From Streptomyces sp. NRRL F-525 (GTDB lineage: Bacteria > Actinomycetota > Actinomycetes > Streptomycetales > Streptomycetaceae): a DNA stretch of 64,000 nucleotides. The position numbers were made by a program, and so were the translations under genes. Below are positions 6,280-62,115 of the stretch, piece by piece. Location: positions 62,001 to 126,000 of the forward strand of contig NZ_JNXE01000025.1 in assembly GCF_000716605.1 (NCBI RefSeq), given 5' to 3'. The notes below the pieces were generated by a model. It was not told the DNA's origin, did not search any database, and saw only the letters and a program-made list of their open reading frames with translations. The number at the start of each line of letters is the position of its first letter. The first letter of the stretch is position 1.

Positions 6280-7230
6280 TCAGCCGATCTTGTCCGTGAA
6301 GCCCGTCGACAGGAACGTCTGATGGGTGACCTTGCCCTTGCTGGGCCCGGCCGTCCACGTGAAGGTGTACTCCAGGATCGCGCTGGTCTTCGGGTCGACG
6401 ATCACCTGGCCGAGGCTCTTGGCCTCCGCGAACTCAACTGCCGTACCACCGCGCCCCGTACTGTCCTTGACCTGGCCGAGCAGCTTGACGCCCTTCAGGC
6501 CGCCCATCGCCTTGAAGACCCCGGCCCGCAGTTTCGGGCTCGCCGGGGAGTCGGTGAGCAGGGTGACCGCCTGGTCGAAGGGCGAGATGCTCTTGGGCCG
6601 CGGCGGGGACTGCAGCAGGCCGAGCAACTTCCCCGAATCCGTGGTCAGTTGCTCCAGCCCCTTCCAGTCGAGGTCCTTCGGCCCGACCTGCCAGTCGGGC
6701 CGCAGCCCCTTCCGGTACGCCTTGCCGCCGTTGATGACGTAGTAGTCCATGGACTGCGAGATGTACGTGGTCCCGACCGTCGTCCGCGTCTTCCAGTACT
6801 TCCCCGAGGACACCGACTGACTGGCGGCCACCGTGGAGATGTCGTCCAGGAAGACGGTCGCGGTGTTCGCCCGGGCCTCGCTGTGCGTGCCGGTGCCCGC
6901 CGAGGTCGTGCCGTTGTTCGCGTACGTCACCACGCCGGTCGCCACCGCGGCCGTGGTCAGCAGCCCGATGAGGACCCGGCGCCGCCCGAACTGCCGCCCG
7001 AGCAGCCGCCGTTCCGGCATCGCGACGACAACGCCGGTCGCCCCCTTGGCGGTTACGGTCGCCCCTTCCGTCGCCACGGCCGCCTCGACCTCGGCCAGCA
7101 CCCTGGCCAACGCCCGTTCCGACAGCGGCTCGACGTGGCCCGCCGCCGCCAGTTCATCGGCGCCGGGGAAGTCCAGCAGTGCGCCTCGCTCGTTCATACC
7201 GTTCGCCTCCGTGTCGTCGTACATGGTCAT
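6280..7230 (-). CDS. CU044_5270-type membrane protein, likely ECF sigma partner/anti-sigma
   Basis: This 316-residue protein has a cytoplasmic N-terminal part with EPLSERALARVLAEVEAAV. One membrane segment follows at about residues 84-103 (VLIGLLTTAAVATGVVTY), then a long extracytoplasmic domain with WKTRTTVG and DYYVINGGK. This layout matches the actinobacterial CU044_5270 family that accompanies ECF sigma factors. Its ATG overlaps the TGA of the sigma gene by four bases, so they are co-translated. An anti-sigma or envelope-sensing role is inferred from position; the family has no firmly established biochemical function that I know of. Confidence 0.85.
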   Translation of the reverse strand: MTMYDDTEANGMNERGALLDFPGADELAAAGHVEPLSERALARVLAEVEAAVATEGATVTAKGATGVVVAMPERRLLGRQFGRRRVLIGLLTTAAVATGVVTYANNGTTSAGTGTHSEARANTATVFLDDISTVAASQSVSSGKYWKTRTTVGTTYISQSMDYYVINGGKAYRKGLRPDWQVGPKDLDWKGLEQLTTDSGKLLGLLQSPPRPKSISPFDQAVTLLTDSPASPKLRAGVFKAMGGLKGVKLLGQVKDSTGRGGTAVEFAEAKSLGQVIVDPKTSAILEYTFTWTAGPSKGKVTHQTFLSTGFTDKIG

Positions 7231-7805
7231 GCGAGGTCTCCCGTCGCGGTCAGGTTCCGTCCCGCCGGGCGGGGCGGTGTGAGGCGGTCGCGCAGTCGGC
7301 CGCGGGCCCGGTGCAGCCGCGAACGGGCGGTGCCGGCCGGGATCCCCACGACGGCGGCGGCCTCGGTCGGGCTGAGCTGCTCCCAGCTGATGAGAAGCAG
7401 CAACTCCCGCTCGTCCGCTGGGAGTTCGGCGAGTGCCCGGCGTAGCGCGGGAGCCATCGCGGCGGCGTCCAGCCGCTGGTCCACCACCTGCCAGGGGTCG
7501 GTGACATCCGGTCCCGGCGCGGGCTCTTGCCGTCCCGCCCGCCGCAGGTGCTGGTTGAGCACGTTGTGGGCCACCCCGAACAGCCAGCCCCGCGCCGAAC
7601 CGCGCGCCGGGTCGAACGTGCGCCGGGCGGCGAACGCCTGCAGCCAGGTCTCGGCGAGCAGATCCTCCGACGCGGCGGGCATGCGCCGGGCGAAGTAGCC
7701 GTGCAGGGCGGAGGAGTGGGCCTTCACGAGGTGGGTGAAGGCCGCCGAGTCGCCCTGCGCCGACCGCGTCAACTGGGCTTCGCTTCCCGGTTCATCCGGT
7801 TTCAC
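7227..7805 (-). CDS. ECF RNA polymerase sigma factor
   Basis: The 192-residue protein has sigma region 2 (residues of about 17-80: DSAAFTHLVKAH, LLAETWLQAFAARRTFDP, GWLFGVAHNVLNQHLRR) and region 4 (residues of about 115-172: ALRRALAELPADEREL, LSPTEAAAVVGIPAGTARSRLHRAR read as two pieces). Regions 1 and 3 are absent, as in ECF factors. It is the first gene of a two-gene unit with the CU044_5270-type protein. ECF factors often activate their own promoter, but no convincing promoter was picked out upstream. Target genes are not evident in the window. Confidence 0.92.
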   Translation of the reverse strand: MKPDEPGSEAQLTRSAQGDSAAFTHLVKAHSSALHGYFARRMPAASEDLLAETWLQAFAARRTFDPARGSARGWLFGVAHNVLNQHLRRAGRQEPAPGPDVTDPWQVVDQRLDAAAMAPALRRALAELPADERELLLLISWEQLSPTEAAAVVGIPAGTARSRLHRARGRLRDRLTPPRPAGRNLTATGDLA

Positions 7806-37805: not shown

Positions 37806-39404
37806 ATGCCCGAACGCATCTCCCCCCACCCCACCCTCAGCCGCCGCAGCCTGCTCGCCGCGACGGCGATCGGCGCGGCGGCCACCCTGGCCGGCACCAC
37901 CAAGGCACACGCGGCGACCGCGCCCGCCGTCACCGAACTCCGCGAACGGGCCGTCGTCGTCGGCACCGGTTTCGGCGGCGGAGTCACCGCGTTACGGCTG
38001 GCCCAAGCCGGCGTCTCCACCCTCGTGTTGGAGCGCGGAAGGCGCTGGCCGACCGGCCCGAACGCGACGACGTTCTGCCGCTTCGCGAACATGGACAACC
38101 GCTCCGCCTGGCTCACCGACCACGCCATCGTCGGCGGCGGCACCCAGACCTGGACCCCCTACACGGGCGTCCTCGAAGCCGTCGTAGGAAACGGCATGAC
38201 CGCCATGTGCGGCGCGGCCGTCGGCGGCGGATCGATCATGTACCACGGCATGACCCTGCAGCCCACGAAGGCCGACTTCGCCACGTCCATCCCCCAGGCG
38301 GCCGGCCTCTACGACGACCTCGACCTCTGGGCCTACCCGACCGTCGCCCGGATGCTGGGCATCTCCACCATCCCCTACGACGTGCTCGCCTCCGACCCCT
38401 ACAAGTCGTCCCGGCTCTTCCAGGACATCGCGCCTAAGGCGGGCCTGACCCCGTTCAAGGTCCCGCTGCCCATCGACTGGGCCTACGCGCGGGGGGAGTT
38501 GGCGGGTCTGTACGACCCGACGTACACCACCAGCGACATCGCCTTCGGCGTCAACAACGGCGGCAAGCACTCCATCGACGTCACCTATCTCGCGCAGGCG
38601 GAGTCGACCGGACTCGTGCAGGTGGCGCCCCTCCACATCGTCCGCGACCTCGCGATGGACGCGAACAAGAAGTGGGTGCTGTCCGTCGACCGCATCGACA
38701 CGGCGGGCACCGTCCAGGAGCAGATCCGGATCACGGCGGACGCGGTCTTCCTCAACGCGGGCTCGCCCGGGACCACCCGTCTCCTGGTCAAGTCCCGTGC
38801 CAAGAACCTGATTCCGGACCTGCCCGACGCCATCGGCACCGGCTGGGGCAACAACGGCGACCGCATCTGGGCCTGGATCAACCCGACCGGCGACGCGGGC
38901 ACCCAACAGGGCGGCCCGGCCTGCGTCGGCGGCCGCGACCCGAGCAGCGCGATCCCGCTGACGGTCGTGCACGCCGGATCTCCCATACAGCAGACGGGAG
39001 TTACGGCCCTGACCGTCGTCGGCTTCGGCATCGTCGACGGCGCGGGCACCTGGGCCTACGACGCCTCGACCGACGACGCCGTCCTCACCTGGCCGACGGA
39101 CACGGACGCCGAGTTGCAGACGCTGATCGCCGGCAAGATGCAGGACATCGCCACCGCGGGCGGCGGCCTGATGATCGACACCAACGCCCAAGCCCCCTCC
39201 ACCTGGCACTCGTTGGGCGGAGTCCCGTTCGGCGACGCCGTCGACCTCACCGGCCGCGTGCTGGGCCACAAGGGTCTCTACGTCCTCGACGGCGCCCGCA
39301 TCCCCGGCTCCACCGGCGCCTGCAACCCGTCGATGACGATCGCCGCGCTGGCGGAACACAGCATGCGGACGATCGTGCAGCAGGACCTCGGGCGGGTGTT
39401 CTGA
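37806..39404 (+). CDS. Tat-exported GMC oxidoreductase, cholesterol-oxidase-like
   Basis: The 532-residue flavoenzyme has a twin-arginine signal (SRRSLLAAT, residues 12-20; cleavage near AHA-A), then the FAD dinucleotide motif GTGFGGG (53-59), ALRLAQAGVSTLVLERG and the GMC region GNGMTAMCGAAVGGGSIMY. The C-terminal FAD/substrate region reads LYVLDGARIPGSTGACNPSMTIAALAEHS when split after IPGSTG. The pattern is close to class I Streptomyces cholesterol oxidases, which oxidise 3-beta-hydroxysterols outside the cell with oxygen. No P450 partner precedes it as in the classical choP-choA operon, though a P450 gene ends 9 bases after it on the opposite strand. Confidence 0.88.
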   Translation: MPERISPHPTLSRRSLLAATAIGAAATLAGTTKAHAATAPAVTELRERAVVVGTGFGGGVTALRLAQAGVSTLVLERGRRWPTGPNATTFCRFANMDNRSAWLTDHAIVGGGTQTWTPYTGVLEAVVGNGMTAMCGAAVGGGSIMYHGMTLQPTKADFATSIPQAAGLYDDLDLWAYPTVARMLGISTIPYDVLASDPYKSSRLFQDIAPKAGLTPFKVPLPIDWAYARGELAGLYDPTYTTSDIAFGVNNGGKHSIDVTYLAQAESTGLVQVAPLHIVRDLAMDANKKWVLSVDRIDTAGTVQEQIRITADAVFLNAGSPGTTRLLVKSRAKNLIPDLPDAIGTGWGNNGDRIWAWINPTGDAGTQQGGPACVGGRDPSSAIPLTVVHAGSPIQQTGVTALTVVGFGIVDGAGTWAYDASTDDAVLTWPTDTDAELQTLIAGKMQDIATAGGGLMIDTNAQAPSTWHSLGGVPFGDAVDLTGRVLGHKGLYVLDGARIPGSTGACNPSMTIAALAEHSMRTIVQQDLGRVF

Positions 39405-39412
39405 CCACAGGG

Positions 39413-40612
39413 CTACGGCGCCCAGGTCACCGGGAGTTCCCGCAGGCCGTACACGATGTTGTCCTGGTTGTAGGTGAGTTGGTCGGCGGGGACGGCGAGG
39501 CGCAGGGTGGGCAGGCGGCGTAGCAGCGTCGTGAGGATGATCTGGAGTTCCACGCGGGCCAGGGTCTGGCCCAGGCACTGGTGGATGCCGTAGCCGAAGG
39601 CGACATGGCGGCGGGCGTCGCGGGTGAGGTCGAAGTCGTCGCCGGACGCGAAGAGTTGCTCGTCCCGGTTGGCGGTGGACAGCATGCAGATCACGCCCTC
39701 GCCCGCCGGGATCGTCACCTCGCCCACCCGCACGGTCTCGGTCGCCGCCCGGCCGAGGCCGAGGTGGATGATCGTGAGGTGCCGCAGGAGTTCTTCCACG
39801 GCGCCTCGCACCAACTCCGGTTGCTCGCGCAGGAGTTCCGCCTGGTCGGGGCGGCGCAGCAGGGCGAGCACGCTGACGGCGGTCATGTTGGCGGTGGACT
39901 CGTGCCCGGTGACCAGGAGGAGGAAGCCGAGTGACGCGGTCTCCTGGTCGGTCAGGTCGTCGCGGGCGGCGAGGCGGCTGAGGATGTCGTCACCGGGCTC
40001 GCGACGCTTGCGCTCCGCCAACTCCGCCAGATAGCCCATGAGTTGAGCGTGCGCCCGCTCCGCCTCCGGGCGGGTGGTGCGGTTGTCGAGGAGGGTACGG
40101 CTGAGGGACTGGAACAGGTCGTGGTCCTCGTACGGCACCCCGAGCATCAGACAGATGACCAGCGACGGGATCGGCAGCGCGAAGTCCGCTACCAGGTCGG
40201 CCTCGGTGCGGTCCTCGGTCATGCGGTCCACGGCCCGGTCGACGATGTCCTGGATGCCCGGGCGCAGTTCCTCGATCCGCTTGACCAGAAAGTCCTTGGT
40301 GACCATCCGGCGCAGGCGGGCGTGCTCGGGGTCGTCCATGCGGATGAAACTCGGCTTGGCGGTGGCCAGTTCACGCTGCCCGGCGGACAGGAACGGGAAC
40401 CCCAGTGTGCGCGCGTCCGCGCTGAAGCGGGCGTCTGCCAGCACGGCCCGTACCTCGTCGTACCCGGTGACCAGCCAGCACGCGGTGCCGTCCGGGAGCG
40501 TGGCCCGGGTGACGGCGGCCTCGCGGGCGGCGGCGGTGTAGGCGGGCGGCGGGTCGAAAGGGCAACTGCCATAGGGGGCCGGGAGGTTGAGGGCAGTGGC
40601 GGTCGCTGTCAT
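39413..40612 (-). CDS. Cytochrome P450 of the ketosynthase cluster
   Basis: The 399-residue bacterial P450 has I-helix LLLVTGHESTANM (Ser in place of the usual first Thr of GHETT), the K-helix ExxR in EELLRHL and the heme motif FGYGIHQCLG (Cys346). It is soluble and of class I, needing a ferredoxin. Its ATG overlaps the TGA of the ferredoxin-fusion gene (ATGA), so that protein is its probable redox partner. The start at 40612 gives a typical N-terminus. As the last gene of the cluster it likely hydroxylates or desaturates the acyl product. The cluster product is unknown. Confidence 0.93.
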   Translation of the reverse strand: MTATATALNLPAPYGSCPFDPPPAYTAAAREAAVTRATLPDGTACWLVTGYDEVRAVLADARFSADARTLGFPFLSAGQRELATAKPSFIRMDDPEHARLRRMVTKDFLVKRIEELRPGIQDIVDRAVDRMTEDRTEADLVADFALPIPSLVICLMLGVPYEDHDLFQSLSRTLLDNRTTRPEAERAHAQLMGYLAELAERKRREPGDDILSRLAARDDLTDQETASLGFLLLVTGHESTANMTAVSVLALLRRPDQAELLREQPELVRGAVEELLRHLTIIHLGLGRAATETVRVGEVTIPAGEGVICMLSTANRDEQLFASGDDFDLTRDARRHVAFGYGIHQCLGQTLARVELQIILTTLLRRLPTLRLAVPADQLTYNQDNIVYGLRELPVTWAP

Positions 40613-41379
40613 GGGTGGGCTGTCTCCTCGTGGTCGACGAGCGTGATGGCCCCGCTGGGGCACAGGTCGGCGGCGAAGCGCACCTCGTCGGCGTACCGCG
40701 CGTCCGGCTCCGGCACGAGCAGCGCCACCCGGCCGTCCGCCTCGTCCTGCTCGAACACCTCGGGCGCCACACCCACGCACTGGCCCGCGCTGCAACAGCG
40801 GTTCCGTTCCAGGAGCACGGTGAGCGAGGGCTGCCGGTCGGAGGGGGTGCGGAGGGTGTTGAGCGTCGTGCACATGGTGGCGGTCTGACCGGCCAGGACC
40901 AGGAGTTCGACGAGTTGCTCGGGGGTGAGGGCGCGGGCGAGGCGGTCCCAAAGTCCCTCGGGGATGGAGGAGTTGACGGACAGCAGGTCGGCCGCCTCCA
41001 GGAGGGCGCGGTCCTCGGGCTGCCAGGGGTGGACGGCCAGGTCGGCAGCCGTCGCGTCGATCTCCACGGCCGTCAGTCCGGCATCCTCGGCCCGGGTGCG
41101 GTGCCGACCGTGGACGTAGGGCGCGTCGAGGCGGTGGGCCACCCGCAGCACGATCAACTCCCGTCTGCGGTGGCCGAGTGTGCCCTCGTGGGTGAGGACC
41201 CGGGCGAGGGAGAGCCAGGCGTGCGCGAGGACCGGGTGGTGGGCGAGGGTGCCGAACAGGTTCTCCCGGCCGGGGCCGTCCTGCCGGGAGTCGGCGAGCA
41301 ACGACCGGAGGACCGGGGGCCATTGGGCGGGCGGGAGGGGTGGGATTCGGGGAGTGTGGGGGGTGCGGGTCGGGGTCAT
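40609..41379 (-). CDS. Carboxymuconolactone-decarboxylase-like / 3Fe-4S ferredoxin fusion
   Basis: The 256-residue protein joins two families. Residues of about 15-180 resemble the CMD/AhpD alpha-helical fold (FGTLAHHPVLAHAWLSLAR, HRRRELIVLRVAHRLDAPY), without the CxxC of peroxidase-type AhpD. Residues of about 186-250 are a P450-type single-cluster ferredoxin: RNRCCSAGQCVGVAPEVFE with Cys195, Cys201 and Cys240-Pro, preceded by an extra Cys196. No internal stop or clear restart separates the halves. It overlaps the P450 gene and so probably delivers electrons to it. What the CMD-like half does is unknown; it may dock, dehydrate or isomerise a substrate. The ATG at 41379 is the best start. Confidence 0.85.
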   Translation of the reverse strand: MTPTRTPHTPRIPPLPPAQWPPVLRSLLADSRQDGPGRENLFGTLAHHPVLAHAWLSLARVLTHEGTLGHRRRELIVLRVAHRLDAPYVHGRHRTRAEDAGLTAVEIDATAADLAVHPWQPEDRALLEAADLLSVNSSIPEGLWDRLARALTPEQLVELLVLAGQTATMCTTLNTLRTPSDRQPSLTVLLERNRCCSAGQCVGVAPEVFEQDEADGRVALLVPEPDARYADEVRFAADLCPSGAITLVDHEETAHP

Positions 41380-41447
41380 GGCGCCTTGTGCCTTCGCGTT
41401 CGTACGGTGTCGGGGGCTGGGGAGTTGTCGTGATGGGCCGGCGACGT

Positions 41448-42443
41448 TCACCAGCGGCACACGACCACCCCCGCGCTCGCCCCGCTCGCGAAGCCGAACA
41501 TGCCGACCAGGTCGCCGCGTTGGAGGCGGCCGCTGTCGAGGGCAGCGGCGAGTTGGAGGGGGATGGTGTTGGTGGCGACGTTGCCATGGGTGGGGAAGGT
41601 CGCCAGGATGCGGCTCTGGTCCACGCCCACCCAGTCGCAGACGACCTTGGTGAACGGCACCGACGGCTGGTGCACACAGACGAGGTCGAGGTCGTCGCCC
41701 GTGACGCCCAACTCCCGCAGCGCGCCCCGCACTTTGTCGGGCAGCCCGTCGAACGACCCCACCAACTCGGCGGAGTCGATGCGGAGATGGCCGAGTGTGC
41801 GGTGCTGCGCGTACGGGTTGGGCAGGGTCGCCGCGCGCCAGCCCCAGGAGTTGGCGAAGAAGCGCGAGCCGAGGATGCCGGGCCGGTCACCCGCCTCCAC
41901 CAGCAGGGCCGAGCCCATGTCGCCGGTGCTGAGGCTGGGTAGCGCGGTCAACAGGTCGGCGGGGTCGTCCAGTTGCCACCGGCTCTCCCGGGTGCTGACC
42001 TCGGCGGTGGTCACCATCACCCGCCGGTACTGCCCGCTCCGGATGAACGCGTCGGCGACCTCAAGGGCGTTGAGGACTCCGTTGCAGGCGTTCTTCAGGT
42101 CGAACACCGGGCAGCCCAGGCCGAGTTTGTCGGCGACGACATGGGCGGTGGCCGGCTCCTCCATGTCGGCGAGGATCCCGGCGTAGAGGAGCAGGTCGAC
42201 GGCGCCAGGTTCGGTGCCGGTGTCCTCGAACAGGCGCCGGGCCGCGTGCGCGGCCAGGTCGGAGGGCTGCTCCAGGTCGTCGGCCACGGTGCGCTCGGCC
42301 AGGCCGTACATGCGCTGGAGCACCCCGCGCGAGAGCGGTACGGCGGGGCTGCCCGCCCGGAACCGGTCCTCGACGGCGGCCACGGTCTGGCGTCCCTCGG
42401 GGATGTGGACGGTGGCGTGAACGATGGTGCTGTGAACGGTCAT
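41448..42443 (-). CDS. KAS III-like acyl-condensing or acyl-transfer enzyme
   Basis: The 331-residue thiolase-fold protein has the catalytic triad of KAS III: Cys120 (KNACNGVLNAL), His258 (VCVHQPS) and Asn288 (THGNVATNT). It lacks the typical FabH N-terminal signature and looks like the divergent group that joins two acyl chains or transfers an acyl group in secondary metabolism. The ATG at 42443 is preceded by GAGGGA. It lies 40 bases after the FabF-like gene. A terminal head-to-head or ester-forming condensation is a reasonable but unproven guess. Confidence 0.88.
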   Translation of the reverse strand: MTVHSTIVHATVHIPEGRQTVAAVEDRFRAGSPAVPLSRGVLQRMYGLAERTVADDLEQPSDLAAHAARRLFEDTGTEPGAVDLLLYAGILADMEEPATAHVVADKLGLGCPVFDLKNACNGVLNALEVADAFIRSGQYRRVMVTTAEVSTRESRWQLDDPADLLTALPSLSTGDMGSALLVEAGDRPGILGSRFFANSWGWRAATLPNPYAQHRTLGHLRIDSAELVGSFDGLPDKVRGALRELGVTGDDLDLVCVHQPSVPFTKVVCDWVGVDQSRILATFPTHGNVATNTIPLQLAAALDSGRLQRGDLVGMFGFASGASAGVVVCRW

Positions 42444-42483
42444 TGGTCCCTCCTCGGTCGTCGGTCTGGGCTCGGGCCCCGGC

Positions 42484-43719
42484 TCAGTCCCCGGCGGTGA
42501 GGAGGAGCACGACGTTGTGCCCGCCGAACCCGAAGGAGTGGCTGACGGCGGCCCGGACGCGCTGGCCGCGGGGCTCGCCCGTGACGCAGTCCAGGTCGAA
42601 GGGGAGGTTGTCCGGGGTGAGGTTGGCGATCGGCGGGACGGTGGAGCGGTGGATGGTGAGGGCGGTGAGCGCCGCTTCGATCGCACCGGCCGCGCCGAGG
42701 CTGTGGCCCAGAACTCCCTTGGCGGCGGTGACACTTGGCCGGTGCGGCAGCACCCGCGCGATCAACTCCGCCTCGGTCAGGTCGTTCAGCGGTGTCGAGG
42801 TCCCGTGCGCGTTGACGTGATCGACGTCGGCCGGGCGCAGCCCCGCCTCCGCGAGCGCCGCCCGCAGCGCGGCCTCGGCGTGAACTCCCCCCGGCGCGGG
42901 GGCAGTCGGGTGATGCGCGTCGGAGGTCTGACCGGCGCCCGCGAGCCGGGCGTACCGCCGCACTCCACGCGCCCGCGCGTCCGCCTCGCGTTCGAGGACG
43001 AGGACCGCGGCGCCCTCGGAGATCACGAACCCGTCCCGGTCCACCGCGAACGGCCGTGAGGCGGCGGCGGGTTCGTCGACCCGGGACGACAGCGCGCCCA
43101 TCCGCTGGAAGCCGGAGGCGATCACCGGGGTGACGGCCGCCTCCGCGCCGCCCGCCACCGCGATGTCGCACAACCCGGCGAGCAGCAGCCCCCGTGCGAC
43201 GGCCAGGGCACTGGCCCCGGACGCGCACGCGGTCTCGGTCGCCAGGGACGGGCCGTGCGCGCCGAGGTCCAACGACACTTCCCCGGCGGCCATGTTGGAG
43301 ATCAGCATGGGCACGAGCGCGGGTGACACCAGCTCGGGTCCGCCCTGGTGATGGCGGATCGTCTGGTCCTCCAGATGCGCGGCCCCGGCCAGCCCCGAGC
43401 CGATCACCACGGCGACCCGCGTCCCGTCCCACCCGGCCGGGTCGAGCCCGGCGTCGGCGACGGCCTCGCGTGCCGCGAGCAGGGCGAGTTGGCTGAACCG
43501 GCCCATCCGCCAGGCCTTTCCGCCGCCGATCCGCGCCTGCTCCGGGGTCATCAGCGGGATACGGCAGGACAAGTCCACGGCGCAGCCCTTGAGTTCGGGG
43601 TCGGTGGCACCGGTTGACCGCCCGCTCAGGACCCCCTTCCAGGTCTCCTCGCGGCCGACCCCGGCCGGGGTGATGAGCCCCAGGCCGGTGACGGACACGG
43701 GCGCGGACGCCGCCTTCAT
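42484..43719 (-). CDS. Beta-ketoacyl-ACP synthase, FabF type
   Basis: The 411-residue condensing enzyme shows Cys165 (TETACASGAS), His305 (NAHGTSTPLND), Lys334 and His339 (TAAKGVLGHSLGAAGA) and the closing SHSFGFGGHN. All catalytic residues of an active elongating ketosynthase are present. Its start overlaps the ACP stop by four bases. There is no separate chain-length-factor partner as in aromatic type II PKS. It therefore probably elongates chains on the dedicated ACP while borrowing reduction steps from primary metabolism. Confidence 0.93.
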   Translation of the reverse strand: MKAASAPVSVTGLGLITPAGVGREETWKGVLSGRSTGATDPELKGCAVDLSCRIPLMTPEQARIGGGKAWRMGRFSQLALLAAREAVADAGLDPAGWDGTRVAVVIGSGLAGAAHLEDQTIRHHQGGPELVSPALVPMLISNMAAGEVSLDLGAHGPSLATETACASGASALAVARGLLLAGLCDIAVAGGAEAAVTPVIASGFQRMGALSSRVDEPAAASRPFAVDRDGFVISEGAAVLVLEREADARARGVRRYARLAGAGQTSDAHHPTAPAPGGVHAEAALRAALAEAGLRPADVDHVNAHGTSTPLNDLTEAELIARVLPHRPSVTAAKGVLGHSLGAAGAIEAALTALTIHRSTVPPIANLTPDNLPFDLDCVTGEPRGQRVRAAVSHSFGFGGHNVVLLLTAGD

Positions 43720-43952
43720 CGCTCCCGCTTGGCGTTCAGCGCGGCGACGAGCTCACCCACGGTGCTGTGCTTGGCGGCCTCTTCCTCCGCGACCGGAACC
43801 CCGAGCTGCTCCTGGAGCGCGAGGGCGAGTTCGGCCAGCGCGAGGGAGTCTAGGTCGAGGCTCTCCAGGGTGGCCTCCGGCCGGATGCTCTCGGCGCTGA
43901 CCTCGAACTTCTCGGTGAGTACGGCGGTCACGGCGGTCTGGGCGGGGGACAT
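43716..43952 (-). CDS. Acyl carrier protein
   Basis: The 78-residue acidic protein has the phosphopantetheine site LDLDSLALAEL (Ser36) and the usual four-helix spacing (TLESLDLDSL, then STVGELVAALNAK). AAAGGACCCCC lies ahead of the ATG. It is translationally coupled to the FabF-like ketosynthase and is the dedicated carrier of this cluster. No phosphopantetheinyl transferase gene is nearby. Confidence 0.93.
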   Translation of the reverse strand: MSPAQTAVTAVLTEKFEVSAESIRPEATLESLDLDSLALAELALALQEQLGVPVAEEEAAKHSTVGELVAALNAKRER

Positions 43953-44084
43953 GGGGGTCCTTTCGGTGGGGCGAGCGGTGTTCCAGGGCGAGAGGCGTTC
44001 CGGAACCGAGGCGTCCGACCTGTTTTTTGCGGTGCGGACGCCGAGGGGGGCGAGCGGCGGGCGTACGCGGGGACGGGCGGGGTT

Positions 44085-44168
44085 GGTCTGAGGTGAGGTC
44101 GGTCTCGAACGGGGCTGATGTCAGACGAGGTTGATGTGAGGCGAGGTTGATGTTGGGTGAGGCTGGTC
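44085..44168. repeat. Degenerate 17-bp repeats between KAS III and ACP
   Basis: Units resembling GAGGTTGATGT recur about every 17 bases (for example 44133-44165) in the 216-base gap between the KAS III stop and the ACP start. They have no palindromic character and no gene is seen here. Confidence 0.5.
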
Positions 44169-45407
44169 TCAGGCGATCTGGGTCCGCGGGGCCGGGTCGG
44201 TGGCGGGGTCGGCCACGTCGGTAACCGGGTCGGCCGGGTCGGTAGCCGCCTGGGTAGCCGGGTCGATATCTTCGGCCAGGTCGGTGGCCGGGTCGGCCAG
44301 GTCGGCAGCGGGTACGGGTACGGGTACGGGTACGACCTCGGCATCCGCGCCGGCTGTGTCGACGTGCGGCACGGGCGGCAGTTCCGGCCACACCAGGGCC
44401 GCCGAGCCCCAGGTGAGTCCGGCGCCGAAGGCGGTCAGCAACACCCTTTCCCCGGAGCGGAGTTCACCCCGCGCGGCGGCGTCGGCCAGGGCCAGCGGGA
44501 TGGACGCGGCGCCGGTGTTGCCGACGCGCGCGATGTTGGTGACGTGCCGTTCGCCGGGGACCGGGATGCGGTCGCCGACGGCGGACAGGATGCGGGCGTT
44601 GGCCTGATGGGCGCAGAACCGGTCCACATCCTCGGCCGCCCAGTCCGCGCGCTTGAGCACGGCGTGGGCGGACTGGGTCATACGGGTCACCGCATGCTGG
44701 TACACCTCACGCCCCCGCATACGGAAGTAACGGTCGTCCGGGCCGAATTCACCGGGCCGGGAACGCTCGCGCGCACCACCGCCGGGCACCTGGATCAGCT
44801 CCTCGCCCGAACCGTCGCCGCCGAGGTCCAGCGCCAGCACGGCACCCGGCTCGTCGCGCTCACCGCGCCGTAGGACCACCGCCCCCGCGCCGTCGCCGAA
44901 CAGGATTCCGGCGGAACGATCCTGCGGGTCCAGCAGCGTCGAGTACACCTCGGCCGCGACCAGCAGGACCCGGTCGGCGCATCCCGAGGTCAGAGCGCCG
45001 ACGGCGGCGGCAAGGCCGTAGACGAAACCGCTGCACGCGGCGGAGACGTCCCACGCGGCGATCTCGCCGAGGCCGAGGCGGGTGGCCAGTCGGGGCGCCA
45101 TGGCGGGCATCGGTCGGTCCGAGGTCGAGGTGGCGACGATCACGGCGTCGACCAGGGGGCCGCCGGCGACCGCGAGCGCGCGGCCGGCCGCCTCCAGCGC
45201 GAGGTCGCCGGTGGTCACGCCCGGTGCCGCGCGGCGGCGTTCGCCGATGCCGGTGCGGCGGCGGACCCAGGCGTCGTCGACGTCCCACGCGGCGGGCAGG
45301 GCGTGGTTCGGCACCGCGTCCGGGGGGACGAAACCGGCGATGCCCTCGAGGACCGCCGTCTGCGGCGTTCTCAAGAGCGGGGCTGCGCTGGGCAGTCGGA
45401 AGGTCAC
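44169..45407 (-). CDS. KAS III / FabH-like initiating ketosynthase with repetitive acidic tail
   Basis: The 412-residue protein has FabH hallmarks: WVRRRTGIGERR, Cys125 (DVSAACSGFVYGL), His267 (CAHQANARI), Asn297 (RVGNTGAASIP) and LLTAFGAGLTWGSA. It should start chains by condensing an acyl-CoA with malonyl-ACP. About 65 extra residues follow the domain. They start with a VPVPVPVP run (from a GGGTAC hexamer repeat) and continue with Asp/Ala/Thr/Pro repeats such as DPATD and ADPVTDVADPATD. Ordinary FabH ends near residue 345. The GTG start has GAGG upstream. It is the first gene of the cluster. Confidence 0.9.
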   Translation of the reverse strand: MTFRLPSAAPLLRTPQTAVLEGIAGFVPPDAVPNHALPAAWDVDDAWVRRRTGIGERRRAAPGVTTGDLALEAAGRALAVAGGPLVDAVIVATSTSDRPMPAMAPRLATRLGLGEIAAWDVSAACSGFVYGLAAAVGALTSGCADRVLLVAAEVYSTLLDPQDRSAGILFGDGAGAVVLRRGERDEPGAVLALDLGGDGSGEELIQVPGGGARERSRPGEFGPDDRYFRMRGREVYQHAVTRMTQSAHAVLKRADWAAEDVDRFCAHQANARILSAVGDRIPVPGERHVTNIARVGNTGAASIPLALADAAARGELRSGERVLLTAFGAGLTWGSAALVWPELPPVPHVDTAGADAEVVPVPVPVPAADLADPATDLAEDIDPATQAATDPADPVTDVADPATDPAPRTQIA

Positions 45408-47954: not shown

Positions 47955-48317
47955 ATGAGCATCGTCAAGATCAACGTACTCACCGTCCCCGAGGAGCAGC
48001 GCGAGACGCTGGAGAAGCGGTTCGCGAACCGGGCCGGGACGGTGGACAGCTCGGACGGGTTCGAGTGGTTCGAGCTGCTGCGTCCCGTCGAGGGCACCGA
48101 CACCTACCTCGTGTACACGCGCTGGCGCGCCGAGGAGGACTTCCAGAACTGGATGTCGGGGATGGGGCAGGCCGCCCACCGGGGTGCGTCCCAGGAGGGC
48201 GGCGCGCAGGGATCCGCCGAGGGTTCCCCTCAGGGTGAGCGGCCGAGGCCCGCCGCCACGGACGCGACGCTGTGGACGTTCGAGGTGGTGCAGCAGGCGG
48301 GGCCCAAGGAGGGCTAG
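47955..48317 (+). CDS. ABM-domain (antibiotic biosynthesis monooxygenase-like) protein
   Basis: The 120-residue protein starts MSIVKINVLTVPEEQR and has LEKRFANRAGTVDSSDGFEWFELLRP read in pieces, plus YLVYTRWRAEEDFQNWM. This is the dimeric alpha-beta barrel of the ABM family, close to heme-degrading MhuD/IsdG-type members. Between the W..WM helix and the last strand (LWTFEVVQQ) lies a Gly/Ser/Glu-rich insert of about 30 residues. GGGAG precedes the ATG. It appears to be a single gene; heme oxygenase activity is possible but unproven. Confidence 0.85.
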   Translation: MSIVKINVLTVPEEQRETLEKRFANRAGTVDSSDGFEWFELLRPVEGTDTYLVYTRWRAEEDFQNWMSGMGQAAHRGASQEGGAQGSAEGSPQGERPRPAATDATLWTFEVVQQAGPKEG

Positions 48318-60834: not shown

Positions 60835-62115
60835 TTACGCCATACGGGTGACACCCGACGGAGCGCCCGGTTCGGGCCCCGGACCCGGTTCCGCCGCCAG
60901 GAACTCCACCACCGCCAGCGCGAAGAGCAGCGCGAGGCCCAGCCCGACCACCACCCACCCCGTCGGACGCGACCACAGCAGATACGCCAGCAGCGCCCCG
61001 CCCACCAGCACCCAGCCGAGCCACGTCCGGTACCGGCGCACGAACGGCCCCACCGGCCCGGTCCGCAGCCCCGCCCCGTCGGCGACCGCCCGCACCGCCC
61101 CGATCCCGGACGTCCACAGCCGTCGTACGAGACCGGCCCGGCGGCCCGGGCCCGTCAGCCAGGCGGCCAGCGCGACCACCACGCCGAGCGCCACGACCAT
61201 CCGTACGCTCGTGTGCAGGAAACGGGTCAGCGCGTCGTACACCGCGGCGGCCGCCCCCGGTGACACTCCCGCCGGGAGCGCGTCCAGGTAGACGGCGCGG
61301 AAGATCCGTAGCGCGATGCCCAGCAGGGCCGTCGCGGCGGCCACGCCCAGCGCGCCCGTCACCAGCGCGCGCCGCCTCCGTCGCGCCAGCAGGACGCCCG
61401 CCGCGACCAGCAGCACGGCCACCAACGGCAGCCAGGTACCGGCGAGTTGGAGGAGGCGGAAGTACGTCTTGTACGTGTCGAGGTCGTCGCTCTTGAGGAG
61501 CGTGATCGACGTGTGGATCTCGGGGAGCTTCCCGGCGACGGTCATCCCCTCGTCGACCAGCCGCTGTTTCACCTGGTCCACCACTGGCCCCACGTCGAGC
61601 GTCACCGCGCCGTCGTCGAGCCGTACCGCACCACCGCCACTGCCGGTCAGGGCTTTGTCCACAGCGCTGTGGACACGGCGGTTCGCGTCCTTCCAGATCG
61701 TGGCGAAGGCGCGCGATGCCGCGACCGCCTGCGCCTTGTCGTGGACGAAGGCGCGGACCGAGTCCTCCAGCGAACCGCCCAGCGCCCCCAACGCCTTTTC
61801 CAGCAGCGGTCGTTGGGCGGGCGCCACACCGGACAGCAGGGCGGTGAGGTCGAGGCGGTCCATCACGGCCGAGGTCACCCGGTTCGCGACGGCGTTCTGG
61901 ATGTCCGGGTCGGAGGCGAGCGGCGCGACGGTCTTCACGTAGCGGTCCGTGTCCCCCACCGTGTCCGCCGTCCACGCGGCCACCACGCCGAGCGGCGCGA
62001 GCACACACCCCACGATCACCAGCACCACGGCGAGCAGCGAACGCACCCGGTGCCGCGGCCGCCGCTCCGCCTCCAGCTCGGCCACCCGCGCCCGCAGCCG
62101 GTCGAGTTCCGTCAC
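60835..62115 (-). CDS. Integral membrane protein with large extracytoplasmic loop
   Basis: The 426-residue protein begins with a short coiled-coil-like stretch (ELDRLRARVAELEAERR), then one helix (LLAVVLVIVGCVLAPLGVV). An outside domain of about 180 residues follows (DTDRYVKTVAPLASDPDIQNAV, VVDQVKQRLVDEGMTV), then about five helices. The pattern TDRYVxTVAPLAxDPxIQ recurs in actinobacterial membrane proteins of unknown function. It is divergent from the lipoprotein gene. Confidence 0.85.
   Translation of the reverse strand: MTELDRLRARVAELEAERRPRHRVRSLLAVVLVIVGCVLAPLGVVAAWTADTVGDTDRYVKTVAPLASDPDIQNAVANRVTSAVMDRLDLTALLSGVAPAQRPLLEKALGALGGSLEDSVRAFVHDKAQAVAASRAFATIWKDANRRVHSAVDKALTGSGGGAVRLDDGAVTLDVGPVVDQVKQRLVDEGMTVAGKLPEIHTSITLLKSDDLDTYKTYFRLLQLAGTWLPLVAVLLVAAGVLLARRRRRALVTGALGVAAATALLGIALRIFRAVYLDALPAGVSPGAAAAVYDALTRFLHTSVRMVVALGVVVALAAWLTGPGRRAGLVRRLWTSGIGAVRAVADGAGLRTGPVGPFVRRYRTWLGWVLVGGALLAYLLWSRPTGWVVVGLGLALLFALAVVEFLAAEPGPGPEPGAPSGVTRMA

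Follow-up and report, generated by a model that had tools for sequence, protein, structure and literature searches.

Six adjacent genes on the minus strand of a 64,000-nucleotide stretch of Streptomyces sp. NRRL F-525 DNA (the window; positions 62,001 to 126,000 of contig NZ_JNXE01000025.1, from a genome of 10.9 Mb in 241 contigs) form a conserved biosynthetic operon that is probably transferable. They encode, in order, a FabH-type β-ketoacyl-acyl carrier protein synthase III (KAS III), an acyl carrier protein (ACP), a FabF-type enzyme, a divergent KAS III that we call KS3b, a carboxymuconolactone decarboxylase (CMD) domain fused to a ferredoxin, and a cytochrome P450. The operon is most likely a variant of the known OleA pathway to hydrocarbons and β-lactones, with a condensing step of a known kind and a different finishing set. 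On balance, we favour a scheme in which the operon's own FabH, ACP and FabF would build acyl chains, KS3b would join them head to head, and the CMD protein and the P450 would process the result into an oxidised two-chain lipid. OleA chemistry leads to β-lactone drugs such as lipstatin and to membrane olefins. An operon that pairs an OleA-type enzyme with a dedicated chain-building trio and with oxidative enzymes, but has no OleBCD, points to bacterial lipid natural products of a branch not yet explored, and the prediction is a compact one of six genes in about 6 kb.

KS3b as an OleA-type enzyme

KS3b (41448..42443, minus strand; 331 amino acids) is, judged by its residues, an OleA-type enzyme. 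It shares with OleA of Xanthomonas campestris, and with that of the lipstatin and nocardiolactone pathways, the KAS III fold, the Cys-His-Asn triad and the equivalent of Glu117-Pro; aligned to Xanthomonas OleA, its Glu96-Pro97 falls at the E117 position. Glu-Pro is found there in all 71 rows of the KS3b alignment, as are the triad residues C120, H258 and N288 at theirs, and a second alignment of 43 sequences gave Glu in 43, Pro in 42 and the triad in 43. According to the accessible part of PMC7064751, Glu117 is essential in OleA and the Glu-Pro pair is near-universal among OleA enzymes. The same position is Met in both operon FabHs compared (2/2), and the five other KAS III enzymes aligned from this genome (operon FabH included; a partial match on contig C68 was left out) have Met, Cys, Gly, Thr or Ser there, never Glu.

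A genome-collection scan with KS3b as the query returned 28 loci, and the genes present were determined in 73 locus records overall. Among these are 23 operon-type records, which correspond to 20 distinct loci and the duplicates L013/L098, L014/L099 and L017/L100. On the KS3b tree all 19 operon-type rows fall in one clade (support 100/99). The set that encloses this clade numbers 30 rows (100/99), and its 11 non-operon rows comprise 6 with OleBCD, 3 with AurF-ACP-FabF and 2 with neither. This tree excluded L073, L030, L018, L106 and L024, for their long branches or unclear context, and L098 and L099 (same contigs as L013 and L014); L016, L017 and L100, with a best stretch of <250 residues, were also not in it. 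A tree that kept the first seven recovered the same clade (21 rows, SH-like approximate likelihood-ratio support 99). Of the 50 other loci, 36 have a gene resembling OleC, OleD or both in the vicinity of KS3b, compared with 0 of the 23 operon-type records.

The chain-building set

The three genes at the head of the operon encode FabH (44169..45407, GTG start; NCBIfam PRK09352 344 bits, cut-off 249; triad complete, as in KS3b), a 78-residue ACP (43716..43952; Pfam PF00550 51 bits) with the attachment motif DLDSL, and FabF (42484..43719; PRK07314 401 bits, cut-off 387), a KAS II with Cys, His and His intact, all on the minus strand. Since its TACASG, HGTST and GHSLGAAG motifs are intact, FabF is not a chain-length factor; the original prediction, an earlier description of the window made from the sequence alone, was right that the operon has none, and we likewise found no ketoreductase (KR), dehydratase (DH), thioesterase or ligase among the six genes. 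In most Streptomyces, as described in the available portion of PMC10616846, the genes for KR, DH and enoyl reductase (ER) lie apart from fabD-fabH-acpP-fabF, so their absence from the operon is expected and is no anomaly.

The primary fabD-fabH-acpP-fabF group of this genome (contig C58; fabD identified by eye) is separate from the operon, and identity between the two sets is 37% for FabH, 34% for ACP (over just 38 residues) and 40% for FabF. The operon trio thus has the features by which we recognise a secondary starter set for fatty-acid synthesis: FabH, ACP and FabF adjacent to one another, away from the primary fab operon and without KR or DH. A similar set, RedPQR, serves the undecylprodiginine pathway. 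The genome holds a second secondary FabH-ACP-FabF trio on contig C7 (62496-70180), with a further FabH upstream, which is 52/43/59% identical to that of the window.

Thirteen other loci carry an OleA-type gene next to ACP-FabF; operon FabF shares 66-68% identity with the FabF of 9 of these and 49-55% with that of the remaining 4. Within its own genome, identity is 58-59% to the C7 FabF and 40-42% to the primary enzyme. On a tree of 37 FabF rows, the operon FabFs make one clade (19 rows, 100/98) that joins 9 OleA-associated FabFs (97/95); the C7 and primary enzymes fall outside this grouping. Judged from these sequences, OleA, ACP and FabF thus resemble an inherited module in this part of the tree but not throughout it.

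The CMD protein and the P450

The protein encoded at 40609..41379 (minus strand; 256 amino acids) unites a CMD (AhpD-like) domain (Pfam PF02627) with a ferredoxin domain (PF06902; motif CCSAGQC...CPSGA). The CMD domain is, on sequence grounds, redox-dead: both cysteines of CxxC are present in 0 of 92 sequences and the first in 9 of 92, with Glu78 kept in 90 and His97 in 91. The CxxC pair we take to be the peroxidatic cysteines of AhpD, and the numbering to be that of AhpD. The proposed pathway would assign a role to such a CMD protein without peroxidase cysteines. The fusion named in the original prediction exists in the window and is not a fixed trait: of the 14 other loci with all six genes, 8 encode the CMD-ferredoxin fusion, and the remaining 6 gave the CMD part only. 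It is, then, an optional part of the operon. In P0045, a 308-residue protein, the early part of KS3b passes directly into the ferredoxin domain, which would fit a deletion of the intervening stretch.

The P450 (39413..40612, minus strand; Pfam PF00067 102.5 bits) has intact I-helix, ExxR and heme-binding motifs (TGHEST, ELLR and FGYGIHQCLG), and its best match in the PDB is 2z36, the compactin 3'',4''-hydroxylase (E 3.7e-108). KS3b relatives stand beside OleBCD-like genes, as in OleABCD and OleACD systems, but no OleB, OleC or OleD was found in the 23 operon-type records (20 distinct loci, 5 of them cut by contig ends). Compared with those systems, the operon adds its own FabH, ACP and FabF as well as CMD and P450, and in the operon type the CMD and P450 genes stand where OleBCD would.

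AurF-like genes accompany an OleA-type gene, ACP and FabF in L062, L063, L071, L072, L073, L115 and L120 (the AurF-like call was checked with Pfam PF11583 in L062 only). These loci gave no OleBCD match except L063, which has OleC- and OleD-like genes, and they may represent one more variant way of completing OleA chemistry.

Conservation and distribution

All six frames are open in the minus-strand order given above, with GC content at third codon positions of 0.88-0.93, zero internal stops and zero TTA codons. Neighbouring frames share 4 bases at the ACP-FabF and CMD-P450 junctions, and the gaps elsewhere are 216 bases (FabH-ACP), 40 bases (FabF-KS3b) and 68 bases (KS3b-CMD). Pfam supports the domain of each gene, and NCBIfam models matched as well. 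Frames, domains and motifs thus agree with the six genes, and the intact catalytic residues of FabF and the divergent KAS III, that the original prediction had read from the DNA.

Besides the window, 20 distinct loci have KS3b at 74% identity or more. A search for the same gene order, which the prediction had proposed, found all six genes in identical order in 14 of them (L004, L006, L008, L009, L011, L013-L016 and L076-L080), so the operon is more than a chance arrangement. In two of the 14, L014 and L016, several genes are split into two or three frames, through decay or sequencing error. Five of the 20 reach contig ends (L003, L005, L007, L010 and L012); the start of CMD is visible at the end of L005 and of L007, and L010 has 225 bases ahead of KS3b, a stretch too short and unusual for the preceding gene to be assigned. 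L017 (same contig as L100) holds a decayed remnant at about 6746-7572, in which part of FabH is followed directly by part of KS3b. Flanking genes vary among the loci.

The named carriers are Streptomyces and one Umezawaea (Umezawaea tangerina, L015), which on the KS3b tree is nested among Streptomyces (99/90 with L079). In a set of 392 Streptomyces genomes, one per species, a KS3b-like match at E 1e-60 occurs in 29, and KS3b at 76% identity or more in 10, including one decayed remnant and one frameshifted copy. A draw of 394 genomes from the class gave 22 matches at E 1e-55, with KS3b identity >51% in the window's own genome only. The distribution of the operon among Streptomyces is patchy.

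Proposed pathway and alternatives

We propose that FabH, ACP and FabF act as a secondary starter and elongation set making acyl chains, with FabD, KR, DH and ER borrowed from the host fatty-acid synthase. KS3b would then join two acyl thioesters head to head in a non-decarboxylative Claisen condensation, with Glu96 of the partner subunit as the probable general base. In OleABCD pathways, the product of this step is reduced and closed by OleD, OleC and OleB to a β-lactone or olefin. Here, CMD might act on the 2-alkyl-3-keto acid by decarboxylation or isomerisation, and the P450, supplied by the fused ferredoxin where present, would oxidise the long-chain ketone or keto acid; the expected product would be an oxidised lipid from two acyl chains joined head to head. 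An oxidised, doubly condensed fatty-acyl product had been suggested before, and it fits the Glu that KS3b shares with OleA and PpyS and the position of KS3b among enzymes of OleA context. More tentatively, CMD and P450 could be a further, hitherto undescribed way to finish OleA chemistry, with the redox-dead CMD as a β-keto-acid decarboxylase or cyclase followed by P450 oxidation. If true, the Streptomyces products would be head-to-head ketones or pyrones, lipids of a new class that replace β-lactones and olefins.

Several observations weigh against this scheme. KS3b is only 22-24% identical to the characterised Xanthomonas OleA structures, and it scores 139 bits with NCBIfam PRK09258, a model we take to cover OleA, where the cut-off is 285 (L066, which has an OleBCD context, also falls short at 164.5 bits). 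In a VIA-align fold comparison OleA tops the list, tied with FabH structures within 1 Z unit, and because of this tie we rejected fold comparison as a discriminator between the two. The KS3b tree does not single out one sister branch for the operon clade; an OleC- or OleD-like neighbour is missing from 14 of the 50 other KS3b loci, and some of the matches in the 36 that have one are weak (24-33% identity). Six other OleA-associated FabFs lie outside the 28-row set formed by the operon clade and its 9 relatives, beyond the genome's own C7 FabF. Umezawaea, nested among Streptomyces on the KS3b tree, is the basal branch of the operon clade on the FabF tree (92/81), so that horizontal transfer of the operon is no more than suggested. 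The action of CMD on a keto acid is speculative, the finishing by CMD and P450 is the weakest step, and the product is a prediction. Finally, the same catalytic Glu is present in PpyS, which makes α-pyrones.

The last point leads to the main rival, which we regard as unlikely: KS3b would work like PpyS/PyrS, combining an unreduced β-ketoacyl-ACP from FabH and FabF with an acyl thioester into a dialkyl α-pyrone to be hydroxylated by the P450. The operon has no ketoreductase of its own, hence a 3-oxoacyl-ACP would be a natural intermediate, and one group of PpyS homologues, with members from Nocardia and Streptomyces, was still without a known product when described in 2015 (PMC4578411). An α-pyrone route would, however, give no obvious role to the CMD domain, and KS3b stands among enzymes that neighbour OleC and OleD, which act on OleA-type keto acids. 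We consider it less probable still that KS3b acts as an ordinary KAS III, or as one that transfers acyl groups, and that a simple modified fatty acid is what the operon yields, in the manner of RedPQR or of the mkp cluster. The Glu-Pro in every KS3b row and the separate FabH that the operon already has speak against this, as does the Val that CorB and MxnB carry at the Glu position (PMC4578411, available part); in its favour are the FabH-like fold, with FabH structures level with OleA by Z score, and the mkp cluster, which likewise unites FabH, ACP, KS and P450 (PMC13336041, in the part available). Least probable is a β-lactone or olefin made with OleC, OleD and OleB from elsewhere in the genome, as the OleBCD-like neighbours of sister KS3b genes might imply. 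The best matches in the operon's own genome score 60 bits for OleD and 121 bits for OleC, versus 313 and 457 bits in L066, and because the host genome gave no strong match to either (OleB was not searched genome-wide) we dropped the OleC/OleD route.

Relation to described clusters

The original prediction had held that the gene set matches no known pathway. This no longer applies to the condensing step, which is of the OleA kind, nor to the separation of KR, DH and ER, which is normal in Streptomyces (PMC10616846, portion available); it does hold in that we recognised no described cluster with the operon's gene set among the open-licence literature matches listed. Closest in combining OleA with a P450 is the OleA-glycosyltransferase-OleC-P450-OleD cluster of the Actinoplanes atraurantiacus type, as presented in the excerpt of PMC7064751; it has OleC and OleD, whereas none was found in the operon, and it resembles L069 and L070, whose KS3b belongs to a different clade. 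The photopyrone and pseudopyronine synthases PpyS and PyrS are, in the available text of PMC4578411, FabH-derived enzymes with a catalytic Glu that join two acyl chains, described there without mention of CMD or P450. PpyS was likened to KS3b by this Glu and by its description, the trees being built without PpyS, RedP and RedR rows.

The mkp cluster for α-methyl-KAPA resembles the operon in its secondary FabH, ACP and KS plus a P450; it has been proposed to draw on endogenous FabD, and it could do without its FabH gene. It finishes via a BioF-like enzyme, and the accessible part of PMC13336041 mentions neither an OleA-type enzyme nor CMD. The sphydrofuran-type island GI-9 of S. ambofaciens (PMC11195616, in the portion available) likewise has two KAS III genes, an ACP, a KAS-family gene and a CMD gene. 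It differs in its AvrD-like butenolide synthase, aldo/keto reductases, thioesterase and gene order, and its gene table in that portion has no P450; we therefore rejected it as a known match for CMD with KAS III. The lipothrenin cluster was also rejected, there being no OleA-type enzyme in the part of its description available.

Flanking genes and minor features

A GMC-type oxidoreductase gene (37806-39404) converges on the P450 gene, with the stops 8 bases apart. It adjoins the operon in L004, L008, L009 and L080, lies about 5 kb off in L003 and L006, and was not found in the more distant operon loci. This gene and the flanking kinase and "mono" genes were rejected as cluster members because they are present only near the operons of close relatives; an upstream XRE-type regulator was rejected because it gave no match at E 1e-6 in the 28 loci. 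FabH carries a low-complexity C-terminal tail of about 70 residues rich in D, P, A and T (44169-44390), which is missing from two aligned relatives; the match in L007 extends to residue 395. A small gene at 47955-48317 in the window recurs 0.3-5 kb upstream of FabH in the close relatives L004, L005, L006, L008, L009, L016 and L080.

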